Below are positions 613 through 20,600 of a stretch of 20,658 bases of DNA, piece by piece. This stretch comes from Spirogloea muscicola. Its lineage: Eukaryota; Streptophyta; Zygnematophyceae; Spirogloeales; Spirogloeaceae. Both the position numbers and the translations under genes were made by a program. Position 1 is the first letter of the stretch; the number at the start of each line of letters is the position of its first letter. Below the pieces are notes generated by a model, which made no database searches, had not been told where the DNA came from, and worked only from the letters and a program-made list of their open reading frames with translations. The DNA is taken from positions 346,606 through 367,263 of the forward strand of contig WELB01000036.1 in NCBI GenBank assembly GCA_009602725.1, read 5' to 3'.

Positions 613-1806
613 ATGGGGCGGTGCCCGAACAACCGAGCAGGCGGCCAGAAACGCAAGTTCTCGCACAAGAGCGCTCGCCGCACGAAGTTCCTGCGCAAAG
701 ATATCCTCCCCAGTCAGGGCTTTTTCTCCTCGGATCTCAGGGCCCGCTTTAGTACATCAGATTTACCAATGGCTTTGACCTAGCTTCTTGCTAGCGAGGG
801 GCCAGCGACGGCCCAGGCAGCAGCACTCTAGTGCCTCTAGAGGGATGCAGGCTGCCTTGCTTGGCAGCCCAGCATCTCACTGAAGGTGGACTGAAGCTGC
901 GGCGCTGGGCCCTCCTTGACTTGCGCTGCCGCTTACGTGAGGACGTCATCTATGACGAGCTCAAGGCTGCCGCAAAGAGCGGCGGTGCTGTGGAGGAGAA
1001 GCTTTTCGATGAGGACCTGCCGGGCCTGGGCCGGTTCTATTGCCTCCACTGCGAGTGAGCTCCCGTCCTCGCTGGCCCTCCTTCTTGCGATAACGCACCT
1101 GAAGGGTCATCAGATAGTTTCAGAAGCAGCCTCTTGCATTTATGTCTTACAAGCATGGAATGAGACCATGCTTTTGCTGCAGTAATGGCACACCGGCTGG
1201 CACTTGCTACAAGCTGCAAATGCAATTACCATGTCTAGAGATTTAAAGCCAGTTAGGCTCCCACTCAGATCCTTCTTCTCTGAAGCAGCAAAAGCAGCCA
1301 GTATTGGACTGTGCTGTATCACCTGGGCTCCTACTTGCAGTCCTATATGTAGACTTTGATACAGTCATGGCCTGTGCAGCCGGCACTTTGACAAGGAAAC
1401 GACTCTGCAAGAACACGTCAAGACGAAGCTGCACAAGAAAAAGTTAGTCCATTTCACTAACCTGCTTCTCTTCAAGTTGATCAATATGCTATATTTGGCA
1501 ATTGATCCTGCTCTCCCTTGATGGTCAGCATTGTAGGCTGCAAACATAGAACGTGTTCATCATCAAATGTAGAGGACAAGGGCGGCTGCAGAGTGGCCAC
1601 CTGGACGTACTGACCACTTGAAGACAGTACTTGCTCAGATTCTGCCATGCTCAGCAGCAACCTGCTTCATTTGTGGCAGGGTGAAGGTGATGAAGGGGCC
1701 CAAGCCACACTCGCAACTTGATGCAGATGCGGCAGGTGGTATGGGCCCCCCAGATAATGGACCAAGGTTGCGAGCCGAGGCAATCCCTGTCACAATGGCC
1801 TCCTGA
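613..1806 (+). CDS. ZNF593/BUD20-like: Bud20/ZNF593-like C2H2 zinc-finger protein (pre-60S ribosome factor)
   Basis: Four exons: 613-700, 937-1054, 1380-1442, 1680-1806 (131 residues, stop TGA). The start codon sits in GAGCCATGG, a good eukaryotic context. The N-terminus is strongly basic (MGRCP, then QKRKFSHKSARRTKF). Next comes an acidic stretch ending in FDEDLPGLGRFY, then one zinc finger of the form C-x2-C-x12-H-x5-H (CLHCD...EHVKTKLH). The tail contains KPHSQLDADAAGGMG-PPDNGP. This order and length match the plant and animal ZNF593/Bud20 family (JAZ-type finger), whose yeast member travels with the pre-60S ribosomal subunit and helps its nuclear export. Phases at the three introns fit exactly (1, 2, 2). 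Introns 2 and 3 are ordinary GT-AG (GTGAGC...GCAG; GTTAGT...GCAG). Intron 1 is AT-AC and is described separately. The gene converges on the minus-strand gene that ends at 2470. Identity rests on motif recognition, not a search. Confidence 0.9.
701..936 (+). other. Candidate U12-type AT-AC intron in the zinc-finger gene
   Basis: The 236-base intron starts ATATCCTCCC right after AAAG and ends GCTTAC. The U12 5' consensus is ATATCCTT, so seven of the first eight bases match. CTCCTTGAC at 912-920 closely resembles the U12 branch-site consensus TTCCTTRAC, and its presumed branch A (919) is 17 bases from the AC end, within the usual short distance. No GT donor is usable near 700. Joining 700 to 937 gives K-G-E-D-V-I-Y-D-E-L, as in plant homologues (KGDDAVYDEL-like). 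The nearest AG (940-941) as acceptor would break the frame. Confidence 0.85.
912..920 (+). promoter_or_regulatory. Putative U12 branch-point element
   Basis: CTCCTTGAC close to the AC splice acceptor matches the branch-site motif recognised by U12 snRNA. U2-type branch sites are far more degenerate, so this match supports minor-spliceosome removal of the intron. Confidence 0.75.
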
Positions 1807-2469: not shown

Positions 2470-5400
2470 TCAAAAGACAGGTCGTTCGAGCAAAGGTGGG
2501 GGCAGTAACGTGGAGATCACCCAGTGCCTATCTCCATTCACGCTGAGATACCCATTAAGCATCTTGCCACCTGTGCACCTCAGGCCATCAATAAGATAAC
2601 ACCAGCCAGAGCCAAGAGCACCCGCGAAGTAGTCGGCCTCGGCGGCCATGAAAAGATTGACAAAGGCATTTTCGCTGCTCTTGCGCGTCCCCAGGCTTCG
2701 TTCGTATGATGGCATGCTCTCGTTGCCCACTTGACGCTGTACATTTGTGTACATCCAATTCCAACCTGGGTAGCGTTGCGCCTGATCGATAACCTGCAAA
2801 TATGTAGTGTATTTGGCTTGTTACGAGCAATGTCCTCCTGACCTATCTGCTCAAGTCCCCCATCTTCGCAGCCCCCATCTTCGCAGCACAACAACACCCC
2901 CCTGATAAATACCCGTATAGCCTGCTCACCTCTTGCATCTCGCTGCTTAACCAAACGCGATAGGCAGAAGGGGCATGACGGCGGACGCGCTCCGCAAGGT
3001 TCATATACTCGTTGAAGCCAGCCATGCGCATCTCCTGAGCCTTGTCCCCCATTCTGACATGTAAGCTCAGCAATGGGCGCGGCACCCATGGACTCCCATA
3101 TCTCTCCCAGACTTCTGTTTCCAGTTCGCCTGCAGATGACATAGCTGACTACAAATGTGAAGGGCAACATCACTGCTGATGACCATTATCGATTGCAGCA
3201 CTCTACACTGTAATAAACTTCCTCCCAGCATGGCAGAGAAGGACAAGTATAGAGGGGTGAACTAGCTGACATAGCCTGGTGACCCACAAGTACGAGTATT
3301 GAAGAGCAGCTCTTACCTTTAAATGGTAACCCCAACAGTTGTTTATTGTCAGAGAGGATGGTCTTCTTACGATGCTCCTCTGCAAGCTGTGCAACTACAG
3401 TCTGCTCAGCGGCCAGCTGTCCAAATGCTTCATGTCTGGCACCATTCAAGAGGCGGCAGACATACTCCGTCTTGTACCGCAGAAGATACCGCCACGCCTG
3501 AGCTCTCCACCATCGATATTTGTCGCGCCTGTACTCAGGGGAGGTCATAAGATTTCTGCAGGTAACAAAATAAGGACCAGACTGCACAAAGAGGATGTAA
3601 CTGGTGAGGGTCTTCAAAATAGGCATGCTGCTGCTTCTTAGGCAGACATTCTTGGAATAAGTTTGAAGATCAGGTATCTGGCATACCCTCCCGTCTGTCG
3701 AACAAGCTTTGTATCAGCTTCCACCATTGGAGTATGCTGCATCCGTTCCCACGGCTCCCCCCAAATGGATGGAATCTCTGGATACCAAAACTCCATGGCA
3801 CCATGATTTTCACGTCGGTCGATAAGTCTTGTCCTGATATTGCGGATGTCCTTTATAAGCTCGGCCATCCGACTGCAACCACAACAATGTATGCTCAGAT
3901 ATGACAGGTATCACTGGCTAGTTGGCAAACATCCTCTGATTCATCACCTTCAGATGCACACCTACATGCCAGTGGCCGTGATGGGTAACTGTCCCACAAA
4001 ATACTTGCCTTCTACACTCCTGAGAAGTCTCTGGTGCAGCATAGCATGACCACTTGCCCCGATGACCTCCCTGGCAACCATCATGGTCTGCACGATCGAA
4101 GTTCTCGATCACCAAAATGCGCCCTGAAGTCATTGCTATGGCCAGTGCTCCTGCCATGGTTGCCAACTGAGCTCCGAGGCCGTGCTTTCCACTTGGCGTG
4201 AATTTGACGTACAAGAACCTGAAAGGACGGCCCAGGTCATGCATTGCTGAGCAGATTAAGTGAAGAAAATCTTCAAGTCGCCTGCTCATCAGAGACGGGT
4301 GAAACCCCTCGCCACGAAAAGCATCTGAGTGACAAACAGGCACAGGTACAGGCGCAGGCACGAAACAGCTGTATTAACAGGCTGGTGCATTGATGTCTTG
4401 TGTCAGCCATACGTGGAGGTCCTCACTTAATGTCGGGTGCAAAACAGTCACGTGGGTGCTGGTGAAGCCAGATGTCACGCTGTACACGGCGTGTCAGGTA
4501 ATAGTTTTCATTGTCTGCACCTTTCACCCAAGGAGGATATGGCCCCTCCACTAATGGTTCATAGATTGAATTCTCCGGATCGACTGTGCTTCGGCTGCAT
4601 GATCAACATCATAGTAGTCAAGGGCGATACAGAGCTGCAGGTCAACGAGCTACAGGGAAAAGTCACCCGTCCTTCCCGCAAGAGATGTCAGTGAGCAGTT
4701 GCAGGAATGTCAGACTTTGAGGGGAGCTTGAAAGCACAACCAAGTGAGTTGCTGAGGGCAGTGTTTACAGTGCTGTCTCGTTCAGAGATGCCAGGATGGC
4801 TATCCTCGACCAAGGCGGATCAGAGCCATCCTCCATGCGGGAGTCGCCATATGCTGCAACCTTGGTCAACGTGGCAGCTGCGCACTCCTCGAGGTGGGGA
4901 GGGCGAGGGACGCTGCCGGGCACTCGTCGCCTAGTCGCCTTCTTCTGCTCGTCCTGCGAGGGGGACTCGGCTCCTCCGAAGCTCTCCGAGACCTCGACAA
5001 CGTCATCATCCTGCACCTCAGAAGAGCTGGCGACGATATCCTCGTGGTGCACAAGCGGCTTCCACTGCGTCCAGAGGGCGAGCACGCGAGTTGGATGGCC
5101 TCTGCGCTCTGTGCTCTGCCACCGGCTGCCGTCGTCAGCTTCTCCAAGCCGAGCTTCGTCCACAGCAGTGACAGCGGCCGCGCCTTCACGGAGCAGCTCG
5201 GGGCCATCAGGCTGGACAGGACGTGCGGCCTCGGGCCGCCAGCGACGGGCCCGCCGTCAGCAGCCTGGTTCGCGAGCAGGCTCTCGTGGAGGCCCGCCCC
5301 GGGCGCCAGCCGCGCGCCGAGGTCGAAGGCGACGAGGAGCGCCAGCGCCAGGGCGACGCAGGCGGCGGCCACCGCGCAGAGGCGGGCCCCGGAGTGCAGC

Positions 5401-6115: not shown

Positions 6116-9100
6116 ATGCCGGCGTCACAGGGAGGCGCCGCGTTGACGTCCGCCGTTTGGATCCGGCCGCACGGCGACGCTGGCGACTCCCGCGGCCGAG
6201 CCCGCACCTTAGCCATCGGCCGCCGACGAGCTTCTCGTGACCGCCGCCTGACCTGTGGCTCGGTCATGCCACCGCGCCTGCCGCTTGCTGGCGTTATCGC
6301 GGCTCCCGGATGCTGGACTGAGCTTGGAAGGAGCTTTCGGTCAGCGGCCCTCGGCTTCCTGCGAGGCGCAAGGCGGGCCGCCACGATTGCCAGCAGTCAA
6401 TCCATTGCACTGCCGACTGGCCAGAACTCGTTGCCAAGCGCAGCCTTTGCTGCTCCTGGGAGTTGTGAGGCAGAGCCAAAGGCCGGCTCGCGCAGCAGCC
6501 TGCGGGTCCACCTCCCGCCTCGCTTGAGGTACGCAACCCTAACTAGCCGCGGATAACCTTGCAGGATTTAGGCTTAGGTTTTAGATTTAATGCCCCGGAG
6601 AGTGGAGCTCAGGGTTCACAGTAGCAGCTGAGATCAGACCATGAATCCTGAGCAACACAGGTCACGGTGTTCGTGGGCGCACGGCTGATGAAGAGCTTGC
6701 GAGTATTGTCCGTACCATCTGTGGTGCCGGCAGTACTGCCGGTGCACTGCTGACAGATGCACAACAGAAGCCTTGCAGGCATTTGCCCAAAATAATCACG
6801 CTTGCAGTTTGCCTACAGTCTCCTTGTCATCTAGCTTGTACGGCAGGGACGTCCTTGTGCTCTGTAGGCACTCCCGAATCGCGTAGTTGACAATGCAGGT
6901 CACAGAGATAGTGGAGAAGTTTTGTGAGTGACGCCTAGAGAAAGGATGCCATATGTAAATATGACCTCAAGTGATATGGCTACAGCCTCTCAGATAAAGG
7001 TCGGCTTTAGCTTTACAAACCATAAGCTGTGGTCTGGCAGCTCAGTGCCTGTGTCTCATGTCACGAGTGACTGCATCCGGACATGATAGCCCCGTAGGTT
7101 TTTGGTTAGACATGCACTGACTTGTCGTCCCGCCACTGGTGGCAGTGTGGCTCCAATGATGGACTGGACAGACGTTCATTACCGGCAACTGGCTCGCTTG
7201 ATCTCAAAACAGACATGGCTGTACACCGAGATGGTTGTGGACAACACCCTGACACACATTGAGGAGCAAAAGCGTCTAGTAAGTCTACCACCTGCATGGC
7301 TACTGCCCGCAGTTGAGATTCCTGATATTGGGTCAAAGGCCCTAGTTTCTACTTCACCCTAGCTAGCTTCACACGCCACTCCCAAAGGCATGAGAAACAT
7401 TTGGCTTTTGTTGCATCCAAAGAATGCAAGAGATTTCCAGATGGAACACATCTTCAATCTCTCTAATTGCTGTAATGAAGCCCTGTCAATTGGATACAGG
7501 ATAAGTTTCTGGCGTTTCCGGCTATGCAAAGACCAATTGTTTTGCAGCTGGGAGGCAGCAATCCAGCAACTCTAGCCAAGGCTACAAAGATTGCAGACGC
7601 TTATGACTACAATGAAATCAACCTCAAGTGAGACATACGTCAGACCTATACTACCTGCACTGCTTCTGTGAGTCCCCTGGCTTTTGCTGCAAATAGACAT
7701 GTGACCAGTGCAGCTGTGATTATCAATCTGTAGTGGGGACGTGTACAGTAGGCATCACCATCATTTGTGATGTCAAGCAGCCTATAGGAGATTCAATCAT
7801 GAGTTGCATAACATGTTCAATTACATGGACCTCCACACTTTCAGACCTAGTCGCATGTTCACATGTTTGAGGTAGCTCCTATATTGAACAAAATTGACCT
7901 CAATGCCTGTTCCTATGCATGTGCGTGTGCCAGTTGCGGATGCCCCAGTGACAAGGTGGCTGGGAAGGGCTGCTTTGGTGCAAGACTCATGCTCCAACCT
8001 GAGGTGTGCTGGCTGACCTCTGTAGTTGCTGTTGCCAACACAAAATTGGAGGAGAGTATGTTGTTGTATCTGAAACACGAGGTATGTTCTAGCCTGCAAG
8101 CAGGTGTAGGTGCTAAAGCAGCTGGCTGCACGTGTCATGATATGAATGGCAGAGGAATGTCTGCTTTGGGAAGTTTCATTCCTCTCTTATGTTGCAGGTT
8201 GTTGCTGAAGCTGTGTCAAGCATAGCTAGCTCATGCAGAGCACCTGTGACAGTGAAGTGTCGAATTGGTGTGGACGATCATGACTCGTACGAGGACTTGT
8301 GTGAGTGGCAATGTGTCCTCATGTCACAGCAAGTGGACGGACGCCTTTCCTTGCACCTCTCTTTGTAGTATTTGACTCTCCCCTGCAATTGCAATCTTGC
8401 AGCATGCAAACCTTCTATGTGTCACTGCCTCCGTGGTTTACTTGAGCAAACCCATTTGGCAGTTCAGCAACTGGCAAACCGAGCGACAGAAGAGAGAGCG
8501 CATGTCCAGACAACACCTGCCAGCTTCGTGCATAACACGTCTTTCCAGAAAGTTTTAAAGCTTTGCTTATCAAGATGTTATTTGTCTATACAGGCCAATT
8601 TGTGCACACAGTTTCCTGCCAATCGCCTGTGCATCATTTCATCATTCATGCACGAAAAGCACATCTGAAAGGCTTGAGTCCAGCAGAGAATCGCACTATA
8701 CCACCTTTGAAGTGAGATCTGCGGGCAATCTTCTCTTCCTGCTCAGTTTCTTCTTGTGTTCATATGCTTAGCCAGCAATTGATTAGATGAGTATCATGTT
8801 AGCTGTTAGCACTGTTGTGTTGATACTGCCCACTAGGGTGTTGCTACGCAGAGGTGATTACATATAAGTCAGGCTTCGTGTAACTCCTTACTGTGATCTG
8901 TTCTTGGTAGGCACGAGTATGTCTTTGCTTTGCTTCGCGATTTTTCTCATCTAAAATTTAGTCTAAATGGTGGGATCACCAGTTTGCAGCAGGCAAGTAG
9001 TTTACTTCTTCTGATTGTGGTCACCATACTTCTCAACTGAAACGATACGCATGATCACAACATGTTCTCTGCTGGCGGCTCTTTTCGCAACTCCGGTAGC

Positions 9101-12335: not shown

Positions 12336-15300
12336 ATGCGGCCGCGCCGGCGGCGGCGCGGCGGNGCGGCGCCGGCGGGCCCTTCGCGCGGCCGCTGCAG
12401 CTCGCCTGCCTCTGGCTCCTCATCGCGCTCGTCGGTCTCGTCGCCTACCTCGGGTTCCTCGGTCAGCCACCACCTTCCCGCAGCTCGGGCCAACATCTTC
12501 GCCCCCCGGAGCCACTGCCTCCTGCATCAAGGAGAAGAATGCGCCTGCTGATACCAAAAGAAACGAGCGGCTGTACATCCATCGTCGCGCTGTCAATTTG
12601 CGCCAGTGCGGTGGCTTGCACCGGAGCTTGTCATGCAGCACTCTGTCTTTCTGCTGCTGCTGCTGATTTCTTGCTCGCTTAGGAGCTGCCATCAGCTCTA
12701 TCGCCGTACTCGCGACTGAGTCCAAGTATTGAGAGCTTTACCGCCTGAGTCCTCTCGGCAGTGCCCAGCCCAGGTCGAGGGGCGGCTCCTCAGCGACAGC
12801 CGAGAGTTGCTGACGATGGGTCCAAGCACTTCTACGCAGGTCGGCGGCACTTATCTGAGGCTTGCCCTGTTCATGCACTGATCTTCCAACTTCGTCGACT
12901 GCAGTGAATTCTCGCTGTCACTGCACATTTGACTTACAGCTGACTACGTGTTACGTTGCAATGTTCAAAGACCAAAGGCTCACCTCTTGCTGCCCGGCCA
13001 GCAGATACGATGCTGCAGCTGCTCGACGCCAATGCACCCTTCACGGTCTTCGCCCCGCTGGACGATGCGTTGCGCCGAGTCTCCACAGCCTTCCAGGGCA
13101 ACTCAACTGCGGAGAGGACGCAGGCTATCTTGTCAAGACTCCTTGGCTACTGCACCGTTCCTATGCGGCTGCTCTCAGAGGATGTACTTGATGCAGGCGG
13201 TACCAGGCTCGAGTCAATAGAAGGCTTCTCCCTTCATATCTTCCATGACAGCCATCACAGGCTGGTGATCAATGGCCAAGCCTGCAGCACAGTAAGACCC
13301 TTGCCTCTAAGCTGGACACGCAAGTGAAGTGGCTGCCAAGCTGCTGTCAGGCTTCGCTTGAAGGGGTATCAGTCAGTGACGATCATTGAGGACACTGACC
13401 TGGCTATGTCATATTCAGGTGGACCTGCAAGAGGAAAAGCTTGTAGTCCACCTGCTGGACAGTGTCCTTGCGCCACCAGCATTTCTGCAGTCCATTCAGG
13501 ACATATTTCCTCCAGGAGAGGTTATTGAAGATAACAGCACAGGAGCCGGACTGATCGAGGAGACGGAAACCACGAAGGGGCAGCAGGGAAAGGAGGGTGA
13601 TGAAGCAGGAGAGGAGCTCGAGGAGAGCTCATTGGATCAGGACAGACGTAAGCGAAGCATGGAGGACGCTGCCAGTGAGCGAGCAAGGAAGCAGCCTCTG
13701 CAGTATCACGAGAAGGCCAGATGGTTTGCTAAGGACGACTCTGCATTGGACACAGATGACTATGGCTATGAACAGGAGGTAGTGGAGGAGGAGGCAAGGG
13801 CAGGGGCAAATGGACAGGTGGAAATTGAGAATGACATCCTGGAGGACTTCAACGCCAGCCTTGGCGAAGTACAGGAGCTGCCAGCTGGGAATAAGGGGTC
13901 TCTTCGGCAGGTCAATCTCTCACTGATTGATGGCGGCTTCTTCAATGATGGGTTTCAACACCTGGTCAAGGAGCCCTCGGCACGAGGCGGTCATGCTGGA
14001 CAGGGTGATGATGAAGACGCAATGGACTTAACTGGAGGTCTACAGGATGGCGCAGGGTTGGGGCGCACATATCTTGCTGGCCAAAACGGAAGTGTTGGAG
14101 AGGCTGGTCGTCTCGATCAAGGTAGCAGAATATCAGACGAGCAGGCAAGAGAGACTGCTCTTGCTGTACTATTTGGTGAGCTCCTTCAACCGCTTCAACA
14201 GAATGCAGGCCTCAACCTTTCTCCTTGTTGAGCTTCATATTGTAGTGCTTGTTTGGAACAGACACGGTTTTGATCTGAAGCTCATGCATGGTGCCTTTGT
14301 CAACATGAAAGCTGGTCATTGACTCCACATCTCAAATTTTGATGGCGCAGATCAACCTCTAAGTGACAGGAGTGCTCAATGCTCTGGCCACGGTCTCATG
14401 GATGCCAGCGGTGCTTGTATTTGCAACCTCCTGTTCTCAGGAGACGATTGCCAGGTCTTTCTGAATTGCTGAATGGTCTTGAGTCCTTGTTCTTGGGAGC
14501 AGATTGCGTCATCCATATTCAAGCGATTGTGTGTCTGGCAAGTGGGTGTTCCAGGTCGATGCTAGAGGGACAAGGGGGGAAAATTAGTTGCTACACTGGA
14601 AGTAATACCACAGCCACTGTTTACTTCCTGCCTGCTACCTGTTGACTAGGTCATAGCTTTTCTTTTCTTTGATTGATCCTTTGTTTCTTCTTGATCTCAG
14701 GAACCCAAAACATTTGCAGACCTGACCCTGAGACCATATCAAGGATCCCTGCTCTTCACACGCGGTGCACTGACGTCTGCAGTGGCAAACGTGGAAGCTC
14801 AGAGACCTCCGAGCACAGGGGACTCGCCATCACAACCAGATCACCTCACTGAGATGGTCAAACAGCTCACAAAGTCTCAGCAATTAGAGCTGACAACCCT
14901 TTTACCCCCCCAAGATCCTCTGGAGGGCCTCTCACACAGAAGTTGTGCTGTTGTGGGAAGCTCCGGATCGCTTCTGCTGGGGGACTATGGTGCCGAGATC
15001 GACGAACACGATGTTGTCATTCGTTTCAATGGAGCTCCTACCCAAGGATATCAACAACAGGTGTACCTTTCCTTTGACTTGGCCCCTAAGCTTCACCTAC
15101 GGTATGCTATACATGTCATGAGCAGAAACTTCTCATCTACTCCTTGTGTGAGTGCAAAGTGGTCATCCTTAAGGACTAAGTGCCTTTTGGATGGATGTTG
15201 CAGGTGGGTTTCAAGACAACGTACAGACTGAACAATGTCGAATTTGCTGGTTTCCTAGAGAACAATGAAACTGTCATACACCATGTGTGGCTCAGGAATG

Positions 15301-17633: not shown

Positions 17634-20600
17634 TCAGTGGCTGGCAATAAGGGAATCTGGGGGTACCAGGACATCAAAGTCGCTCAAAGTCCACTCCACC
17701 GTCTGAGCACTTGGGCTGATGAAAATTTCAGTACCAACGTCCAACGAGGGCCACACCCTCTTGGCAGGCGGGCTGCCCGGGTCCTGCACATGTGACTGGC
17801 TCACACGATGAGAAGGCAAACCACCTCACCAACAGTGTACAGCTCTGGGAGCAGCAAACACAGTTGCCTTAGCTAAAGTCTAAGTTGGAGAGTAGCCTGA
17901 CCCACAAGACCACCCAATAAAGAGTAAGCAAGCCAGTAGCATTACATACTACTGGTTTGCAAAGACACGCATCAGACACTCGGGGTTCGAGCCACCAGCC
18001 TGATAGTAGTTGAGCCTTGCTGACAAAGCCCCTGCGTCTAGCTCCCAAGTCCTTGGATCGCCGATCCAGCCCTCACCAGCTGTCGAAGGGAAACCATGAG
18101 GAGCCCACTCAGGGTGGGGCACCAGCTGCATGAGCTCCTGCACGCTTGCAGGGCCAATGTGGTCAACTTGTGAAGGAGAAGTTGGTCTGCAATGTTGAAT
18201 GCTCGCGAGACGACTTAGCAAGGACACAGGGCACGACACGCTTTGAACATGTCAAGGCTGACAACCTGAGACCGGCATGGCAAGACCAGGCAAGCACTAA
18301 ACAGGAGCCGGGTGCTCAATCAGGCTATCCAGTGAACTCCTTAAGTGTCAAATGTTAGGACCATAGACCAAGACCATCCAGAAAATTGAGGCTCCAATTT
18401 TGTCAATCTGCTATTAAAAAAGGCCTAGCTTATGCTTCATGACACTCACTTATTGTACCTGTGGTTGAGGGTTGCTGAAAGGATCACAGCCTCCAAACGG
18501 TTGCTCTGCATGTCGAGCATTAGAAGGTCCACAATAGTAGTGATATGCTGAATAGGGGTACCGCTCAATATCAGACCTGTGGACCTGAGTACCATTCACA
18601 AAAGTGTGGTATGGAGGGCACATGTGCAGTGTCCACCTCGAGCACCAAGCGCTCACTTCCGGGTTGATGATCATCTCCGCATACCGAGTCACATCTGTGG
18701 TCACATTCCCGTCACAGGCCCTTCCGTCGTTCTTCCAGCAGCCGCCCAGGTCGATGAGATAGAATTGACTCTTGGGGCCTCCTCCCCGTGTCACATTGAG
18801 CGCGAGCCGCACCCGGAAATCCGGACTGACTGGCACCTGCAGAGAGAGAGTGAAAGCACGTAATCGGCATGACCTCCAAGGAGCACTCTGTGCGCTGCAT
18901 CATCGCCAGTCGGCGAGGGCACTTGACATTGGGACCCATTATCAGGCACAAGCTAAGTCCTTGTCTGTGTGGGCTTGTGGCACACCACCAGTACCTTGCG
19001 CATGAGGCCCCTGGAGTCCCAAGGCTTGCCTCCCGAGACCCCAGAAGTCGCATCAGCACGGAGGTACAACATCAGCCAGGGGTACTTGGTCGAGACATCC
19101 AGCTGGTGCCGGAACGTCCAGCTGCCGCTGTCGGGATCCTTCTCCCACTCCACGGAGAAGAACGACATATCGTCACCGCCTGAGCCTGCTCTGAGTGAGT
19201 CTGGGTGTGTGATGTCATACGTGCCGCTGAAGCCGCCCTTGATGCCAATGACCGAGCTGTCCGTCGACCCATTGGGATGACGGCCATGCTGTGGCTCCGA
19301 CCACTGGTGCTTGACAATGGGCTGGTTCATGCAGCCGGGCCCGAAGCAGGGGAACTCGTTCGGCGCCCATGGCCCGGGCGCGCAGCCTCCGGAGGCGCTC
19401 GAGCAGGACGCTCGGCGGCTCCTGAAGGAGCGTGCAGGCATGACGTACGACAGCCTTTCAGCACTTCCGCTCGCTGTGCTGAGCCTGGCCTTCGTGTAGT
19501 CACCCCGGAAGCGCGTACTTTGGTGCTCACGTCCATAGCCATACCTCCCCTGCCCGTCCGCAGCCTGCGCTGTGTGTGGACAGAACCCCCATCCCGGATT
19601 GAAGTTGCCGTTCTTCAGCATGATCATCCAGAAGTGCCAGGGGAGCTGCTGCTCGTCATCCTCCTCTGTCACCTCGCACAGCGAGGCGAGGTAGTGCTCC
19701 TGCGGCCTCGTGCACAGCATTGTTCAGCTTCTGGCAGGCTCCTCACTGCCAGGCTGATAGCATCAATGACATATTGCGCAAGCCCTACCCAACGTGGCAC
19801 ATGTCTAAGACAGCCGCCAAGCTACAGAGCAGAGAGCCTCAGTATCAAAGTTTTTGGATGGTATGTGTTGTTGTTGTTGATCACGGGGCCAGAGCCCTGA
19901 CAGCAATCTGCTCATCATCGGCAGGCCCTGCTAAACCATCAGGCTGTACTAATGTCATCCTAAGGCTCATGTTTAATGGTAAGGGCTCTCACACCTTCTG
20001 CATTGCATAGTCATCCGGATTGCTGGCATTCCCGTAGGCTGCCGCCGATGCCGCCGGGAAGTGGTCGCCGAATCTCAGCCAGTTGTCCTCATCGGTCACG
20101 AGGTTGCCCACCGTGCAACCTGAGGTCCTTTCGAGCCAGAAGCCGCGCGTTCACAGGACATTGCCATCACCTGAGAATTTCGTTGAGCTGCAACGAAGCG
20201 CAAGCCTTGTGCTATGCACCGTTCGATACGAGGCCAAGGCGTGCATGCCATCAACAGGCTCAGTGGCTGCTTGGCTGCACCAGGCCGCTAAAGGCAGGTC
20301 CTTCCAGGAGCACCGTGGAAGGACTCAATGGCTTGACGTCAAGGCTAGCTGAGCGCAGCAAGCGGCGGCCCTCCAGCTCGACTCCCAGCGGCAGCCGCAA
20401 GTACCTGTCGTGTTGGCGGCGGCCGCGCCGTCGGGGCACTGGAGGTCGGCGCAGTCGGCCCAGCGCGGGCTGTCGAGCTGTGTCTCTGCGGGCGTCTGCT
20501 GCGGGCCGGCCTTGTTGCAGAAGTTCCAGCCCTCCATGGCCACCCGGAGCCGGCGGCTGCGCATCCCCGCGTCGCCGAGCGCGCTGACGTACTTGCCGCC

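Follow-up and report, generated by a model that had tools for sequence, protein, structure and literature searches.

A gene at positions 613-1806 (+) of the window (the whole stretch of 20,658 nucleotides that was analysed) raises two questions: whether its first intron has AT-AC borders and belongs to the U12-type, and in what kind of organism such an intron would be found. The initial annotation had answered the first question positively and had found the answer surprising, on the premise that the genome could be that of a chlorophyte. Since the surprise rested on a chlorophyte host, the interest of the case is decided by the host lineage.

The window covers positions 346606-367263 of contig C36, and the gene has four exons and encodes a ribosome-assembly protein of the Bud20/ZNF593 type. 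Joining 613-700, 937-1054, 1380-1442 and 1680-1806 gives one open protein of 131 aa. By phmmer, its residues 19-111 match yeast Bud20 (E 7e-14) and its residues 11-115 match human ZNF593 (E 6e-13), and both alignments cross the junction between exons 1 and 2. This match over most of the length is accompanied by a C2H2 zinc finger in the spliced protein (Pfam zf-C2H2_jaz, E 1.5e-9), which places the protein in the family. Exon 1 (613-700) is an open frame encoding MGRCPNNRAGGQKRKFSHKSARRTKFLRK plus the first base of a Gly codon, and is followed by intron 1 (701-936, 236 nt, phase 1). Exon 2 (937-1054, EDVIYDEL...FYCLHC) falls within the Bud20/ZNF593 match, and splicing of the junction 700/937 yields ...ARRTKFLRK-G-EDVIYDEL..., with a single Gly between the two conserved blocks. 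Intron 2 (1055-1379, GTGAGC...GCAG) and intron 3 (1443-1679) are GT-AG introns, ordinary U2-type by their borders. They surround exon 3 (1380-1442), an open frame that holds the remainder of the zinc finger, and exon 4 (1680-1806) ends with the stop codon TGA at 1804-1806.

Other genes can be recognised in the window. Exons of a tRNA-dihydrouridine synthase (Dus, PF01207) lie at 7090-8365 (+), one scoring over the cut-off and another marginally under it. A GT29 sialyltransferase-like stretch (14695-15228, +, E 5e-17) lies downstream of a stretch with a fasciclin domain (12944-13324, +, E 3.5e-8), and a DUF7705 stretch (PF24804) occupies 18956-19723 (-, E 2e-49). Open stretches at 2470-4373 (-) resemble by eye a fucosyltransferase-type glycosyltransferase; a Pfam scan of 2846-3148 and 3921-4373 on this strand gave no match.

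The splice signals that had been claimed for intron 1 are present. The intron opens with the donor ATATCCTC (701-708), carries the branch element CTCCTTGAC (912-920) and ends in TTAC at 936. The likely branch A, at 919, lies 17 nt before the last base of the intron, and the 3' splice site AC (935-936) is the first AC or AG past the branch element. The donor agrees with an (A/G)TATCCTT-like sequence in both copies of the gene (see below) with one departure, a C at +8 instead of the usual T, to which the window adds a C at +9. The branch element agrees with TCCTTRAC near the 3' end, and the AC end is likewise as expected of this class. The C at +8 shortens the pairing of the donor with U11 and U6atac, and the C at +9 weakens it as well; that splicing might be slowed by the former is speculation.

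The chance occurrence of such signals was assessed by scanning for ATATCCTY, TYCTTRAY and AC, in this order and within a span of about 600 nt, on both strands of 124,191 bases (the window and 41 of 49 loci, with six Bud20 loci and two overlapping loci excluded). This returned a single pair, namely intron 1, and only 4 of 300 first-order Markov resamples of the window contained any such pair. When the scan was widened to spans of up to 1,500 nt, to AG as well as AC ends and to the donor RTATCCTY, it gave 12 rows: seven are Bud20 copies, two are in locus L016 (AG ends, 1,264 and 1,270 nt), and three are on the minus strand of the window, with a donor near 15051 (two with AG ends, one with an AC end and 1,100 nt). 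We set aside the L016 pairs and those of the minus strand, whose donor is antisense within the GT29-like coding stretch. Judging from its sequence, intron 1 is very probably real and of the U12-type AT-AC class, and it would be spliced at these borders by the minor spliceosome.

Searched against the whole genome, the protein matched eight exons, divided equally between C36 and a second contig, C61. The gene on C61 likewise consists of four exons, and splicing it at the same junction gives a frame that is open throughout; the lone TAG in its exon 3 match falls within the following intron. The two copies are identical at 83 of the 88 bases of exon 1 and at 107 of 118 aligned bases of exon 2. Their first introns have diverged more: the C61 counterpart has 245 nt and shows 82.1% identity over 234 aligned positions, with five gaps (2, 3, 6, 1 and 1 bases). 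Despite this diverged body, C61 retains ATATCCTC, CCTCCTTGAC and the terminal AC; the whole branch element is identical, and the intron ends in ATAC in C61. The second copy supports the 701/936 borders.

It had also been claimed that only the 701/936 pair keeps the reading frame, which is too strong for the window taken alone. We enumerated 241 in-frame, stop-free border pairs, 77 of which keep both conserved blocks, defined as exact strings chosen by the analyst. Among these 77 pairs, 11 are GT-AG and separate the blocks by 22 aa or more. For C61, the enumeration yields 21 pairs with both blocks intact, all of them AT-AG or AT-AC and none with a GT or GC donor. A linker of one residue in both copies is obtained only with 701/936 and its C61 homologue. 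When the pairs were scored with a profile of two sequences (fragments of yeast Bud20 and human ZNF593), 701/936 shared the top score of the window, 72.0 bits, with the AT-AC pair 769/944, and the best GT-AG pair came at rank 46 of 241 (67.6 bits). In C61 the homologue of 701/936 was second (73.3 bits) and the best GT-AG pair was at rank 49 of 197 (68.7 bits); the top score (77.6 bits) went to an AT-AG pair that has neither a U12 nor a U2 donor signal and has no counterpart in the window. The pairs 703/944 and 703/941, whose donor is two bases off, are open in both copies and within 1 bit, lack a U12 donor, and break the conserved-block rule by one or two residues. A profile built from two distant homologues discriminates poorly between near-neighbour pairs, and the argument for the borders therefore rests on the agreement of the two copies together with the splice signals.

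An intron of this class was expected to be accompanied by a minor spliceosome, and the initial annotation had named the components to be sought. The genome searched has 153 Mb in 471 contigs and is possibly incomplete; a missing match in it does not show absence. U12 was found at three loci (81.1, 80.1 and 80.1 bits; Rfam cut-off 53), U6atac at three (85.5, 85.5 and 83.2 bits; cut-off 33) and U11 at four (59.6, 57.2, 52.4 and 45.8 bits; cut-off 39). The branch-binding stretch and the Sm site of U12 agree with the consensus, as does the GUUAGCA element of U6atac, which pairs with U4atac. Copies of U12 and of U6atac are nearly identical inside with divergent flanks, and a TATATAA precedes each of the three U12 copies by about 30 bases. 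The four U11 copies include a more divergent one. Three U11 copies have AUAAAGGGU at the 5' end; the remaining copy, with AUAGAGGGU, has the lowest score, lies on the short contig C439 and may be a pseudogene. A fourth U6atac match at C7:1396455-1396570 (-) has 21.4 bits, under the cut-off, and its sequence resembles an ordinary U6 gene.

Among the proteins, CENATAC/CCDC84 (PF14968) has two loci, on C7 and C4 (99.2 and 97.9 bits), in a genome with many GRAS loci in threes. CENATAC is described as a U4atac/U6atac component that promotes the splicing of A-type minor introns (PMC8280824, excerpt). No U4atac was found in the contigs at E<=1 with RF00618, a result that does not show its absence. 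Two patterns derived from the genome's own U6atac hit 1 and 11 places; the reversed controls had 7 and 12 hits, and none of the twelve forward hits was recognised as U4atac by cmscan. Similarly, the U11-48K zinc finger (PF05253, a model of 25 positions) had no match in the genome, which does not show absence either; the U11-48K proteins of plants are reported to be very variable (PMC4892727, excerpt). Taken together, U11, U12, U6atac, CENATAC and the conserved AT-AC intron support the earlier suggestion that this genome has retained a minor spliceosome.

The lineage of the host was judged from bit scores and gene content, not from a tree, and the organisms of the PDB chains are presumed ones. 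An Lhca3-like protein has its best scores, 357 and 355 bits, with 8htu and 7xqp, which we take to be chains of Physcomitrium patens (best 60 of 181 rows, here and for the other Lhca3 scores). The scores of the top 21 chains go down to 304 bits and then drop to 288 or less. The chains that we take to be full-length and embryophyte are among these 21 (304-357 bits), and those that we assign to chlorophytes have 288 bits or less: 7d0j (288) and 6ijj (286), which we assume to be from Chlamydomonas, 6igz (261, presumably Bryopsis), 6zzx (257, presumably Chlorella) and 6sl5 (257, presumably Dunaliella). Two chains that we believe to be from pea, 3lw5_3 (172 residues, 270 bits) and 2o01_3 (165 residues, 264 bits), score under Chlamydomonas, which we ascribe to their short length.

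Another LHC gene occurs as a trio on C30, C76 and C28, of which the C30 member was tested. Its three best single-chain PDB matches have 393.5, 392.3 and 391.9 bits, the last one being named protein 3, and we take these chains to be land-plant Lhcb3 of pea, spinach and Arabidopsis. The best chain of presumed Chlamydomonas origin has 359 bits, equal to many other land-plant chains. Lhcb3 is known as a land-plant type, and these scores suggest that a probable alga has an Lhcb3-like protein. A single LHCII exon did not decide the matter: among the best 60 of 633 matches, it scored 341 bits with a chain that we assign to Physcomitrium, 331 with one assigned to spruce, up to 318 with presumed Chlamydomonas chains and about 308-324 with presumed angiosperm Lhcb1/2. 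The top row for both this exon and the C30 gene, 9vfj_2, was set aside as its score is a sum over several domains, the best single domain having 232.5 and 277.6 bits, respectively.

GRAS domains gave 92 matches, many of which group by three across contigs; for one GRAS exon, DELLA proteins rank first among the PDB matches. The origin of the family has been placed in an ancestor shared by Zygnematophyceae and Embryophyta (PMC11096116, excerpt), and the genome of Spirogloea has been described as triplicated (PMC7994812, excerpt). A search for rbcL had no match in the assembly, which hence offers no plastid marker. Long homopolymer runs adjoin runs of N beside some LHC genes and are probably assembly gaps. 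The premise of a chlorophyte host is not borne out by these results: the Lhca3 scores, the second LHC gene and the GRAS content are all streptophyte-like. We take the host to be a streptophyte, most likely a zygnematophyte; the GRAS and LHC markers do not separate a zygnematophyte from a land plant, and a small land plant is the less likely host. Minor splicing is to be expected in either.

Other accounts of the locus can be weighed against these data. The least credible is that the AT-AC borders are spurious, a product of by-eye annotation, and hide a GT-AG intron or another start codon. The eleven GT-AG pairs of the window do keep both blocks in frame, but only with the long linkers mentioned above, and none works in the C61 copy. 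A start further downstream is unlikely because exon 1 is so well kept in C61 and because the exon 2 frame (795-1058) has no ATG. We give hardly more credit to the possibility that the AT-AC intron is removed by the major (U2-type) spliceosome. Rare U2-type introns with AT-AC borders do exist (PMC8280824, excerpt). However, this one combines the U12-type donor ATATCCTC with a U12 branch element 17 nt from the end, both kept in C61, and the genome has minor snRNAs and CENATAC.

Equally improbable, in our opinion, is that a chlorophyte carries this U12-type AT-AC intron, so that a minor spliceosome would survive in a lineage supposed to lack it. This account would accommodate the chlorophyll a/b-protein genes and the presence of U11, U12 and U6atac. 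It also gains something from the LHCII exon, for which the score of 318 of the presumed Chlamydomonas chain falls inside the range of the presumed angiosperm Lhcb1/2 (about 308-324, best 60 of 633), and from the C30 gene, for which the presumed Chlamydomonas chain equals many land-plant chains below the top ones. Against it stand the gap in Lhca3 scores between full-length chains presumed to be embryophyte (304-357) and those presumed to be chlorophyte (288 or less, best 60 of 181), the fit of the C30 gene to presumed land-plant Lhcb3 at 392-394 bits, and the 92 GRAS matches with DELLA as best PDB match, given the origin proposed for this family (PMC11096116, excerpt). According to an earlier publication, U12 introns are missing from green algae, Chlamydomonas being the case examined (PMC2846911, excerpt).

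We are thus left with a reading that we hold with high confidence: intron 1 is a U12-type AT-AC intron, an ordinary retained minor intron of a streptophyte host, most likely Spirogloea muscicola (Zygnematophyceae). Its donor would be recognised by U11 and its branch element by U12, U6atac would then take over the donor, and CENATAC would help with this A-type donor. The minor spliceosome itself would have been inherited from the common ancestor of streptophytes. A more elaborate version, which we regard as unlikely, supposes a zygnematophyte minor spliceosome whose U4atac has diverged beyond the reach of the Rfam model and whose U11 pairs over a shortened stretch of the donor, and an A-type intron in both copies of the ribosome-assembly gene that survived the triplication. 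If this were true, minor splicing through CENATAC could limit ribosome production.

Three known systems come closest. Land plants such as Arabidopsis and rice have U12-type AT-AC introns that are alike in the RTATCCT donor, the TCCTTRAY branch element and the AC end, which form the land-plant consensus of this class. The differences are that the present host is most likely an alga and that the donor has a C at +8. Streptophyte algae are covered by a survey of minor introns whose first author is, we believe, Larue. In this survey (PMC10639083, 2023), the minor introns verified by comparison number 166 in Chara braunii and 110 in Klebsormidium nitens, and the main text has no occurrence of Spirogloea. 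The phase of intron 1, other than 0, and its 5'-proximal place correspond to biases of minor introns reported there (PMC10639083, excerpt). AT-AC introns account for 26% of the U12 introns of Arabidopsis (PMC7367187, excerpt). The CENATAC/CCDC84 pathway for A-type minor introns shares its factor with this genome; the function of the factor was shown in human cells (PMC8280824, excerpt).

A partial literature search on the minor spliceosome in Zygnematophyceae found no paper on the subject and one unrelated paper, on U2AF65B. A search for minor introns in charophytes or streptophytes by those terms had a sole match, which mentions "streptophyte" only in the title of a reference. The same partial search found no literature tying ZNF593 to minor introns, and At2g36930, which we take to be the Arabidopsis homologue of this gene, is absent from the 25 papers listed of 275 literature matches.

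The intron is a well-supported example of a known phenomenon, and its surprise rested on the chlorophyte premise. Nothing here is evidence of minor splicing in chlorophytes; that result would have been the surprising one. What the genome offers is a seemingly functional minor-splicing set (three snRNA families, CENATAC and an AT-AC intron that both gene copies keep), most likely belonging to the algae that are sister to land plants. The case falls between Chara and Klebsormidium on one side and embryophytes on the other, and extends the record of streptophyte algae to what is most likely a zygnematophyte.
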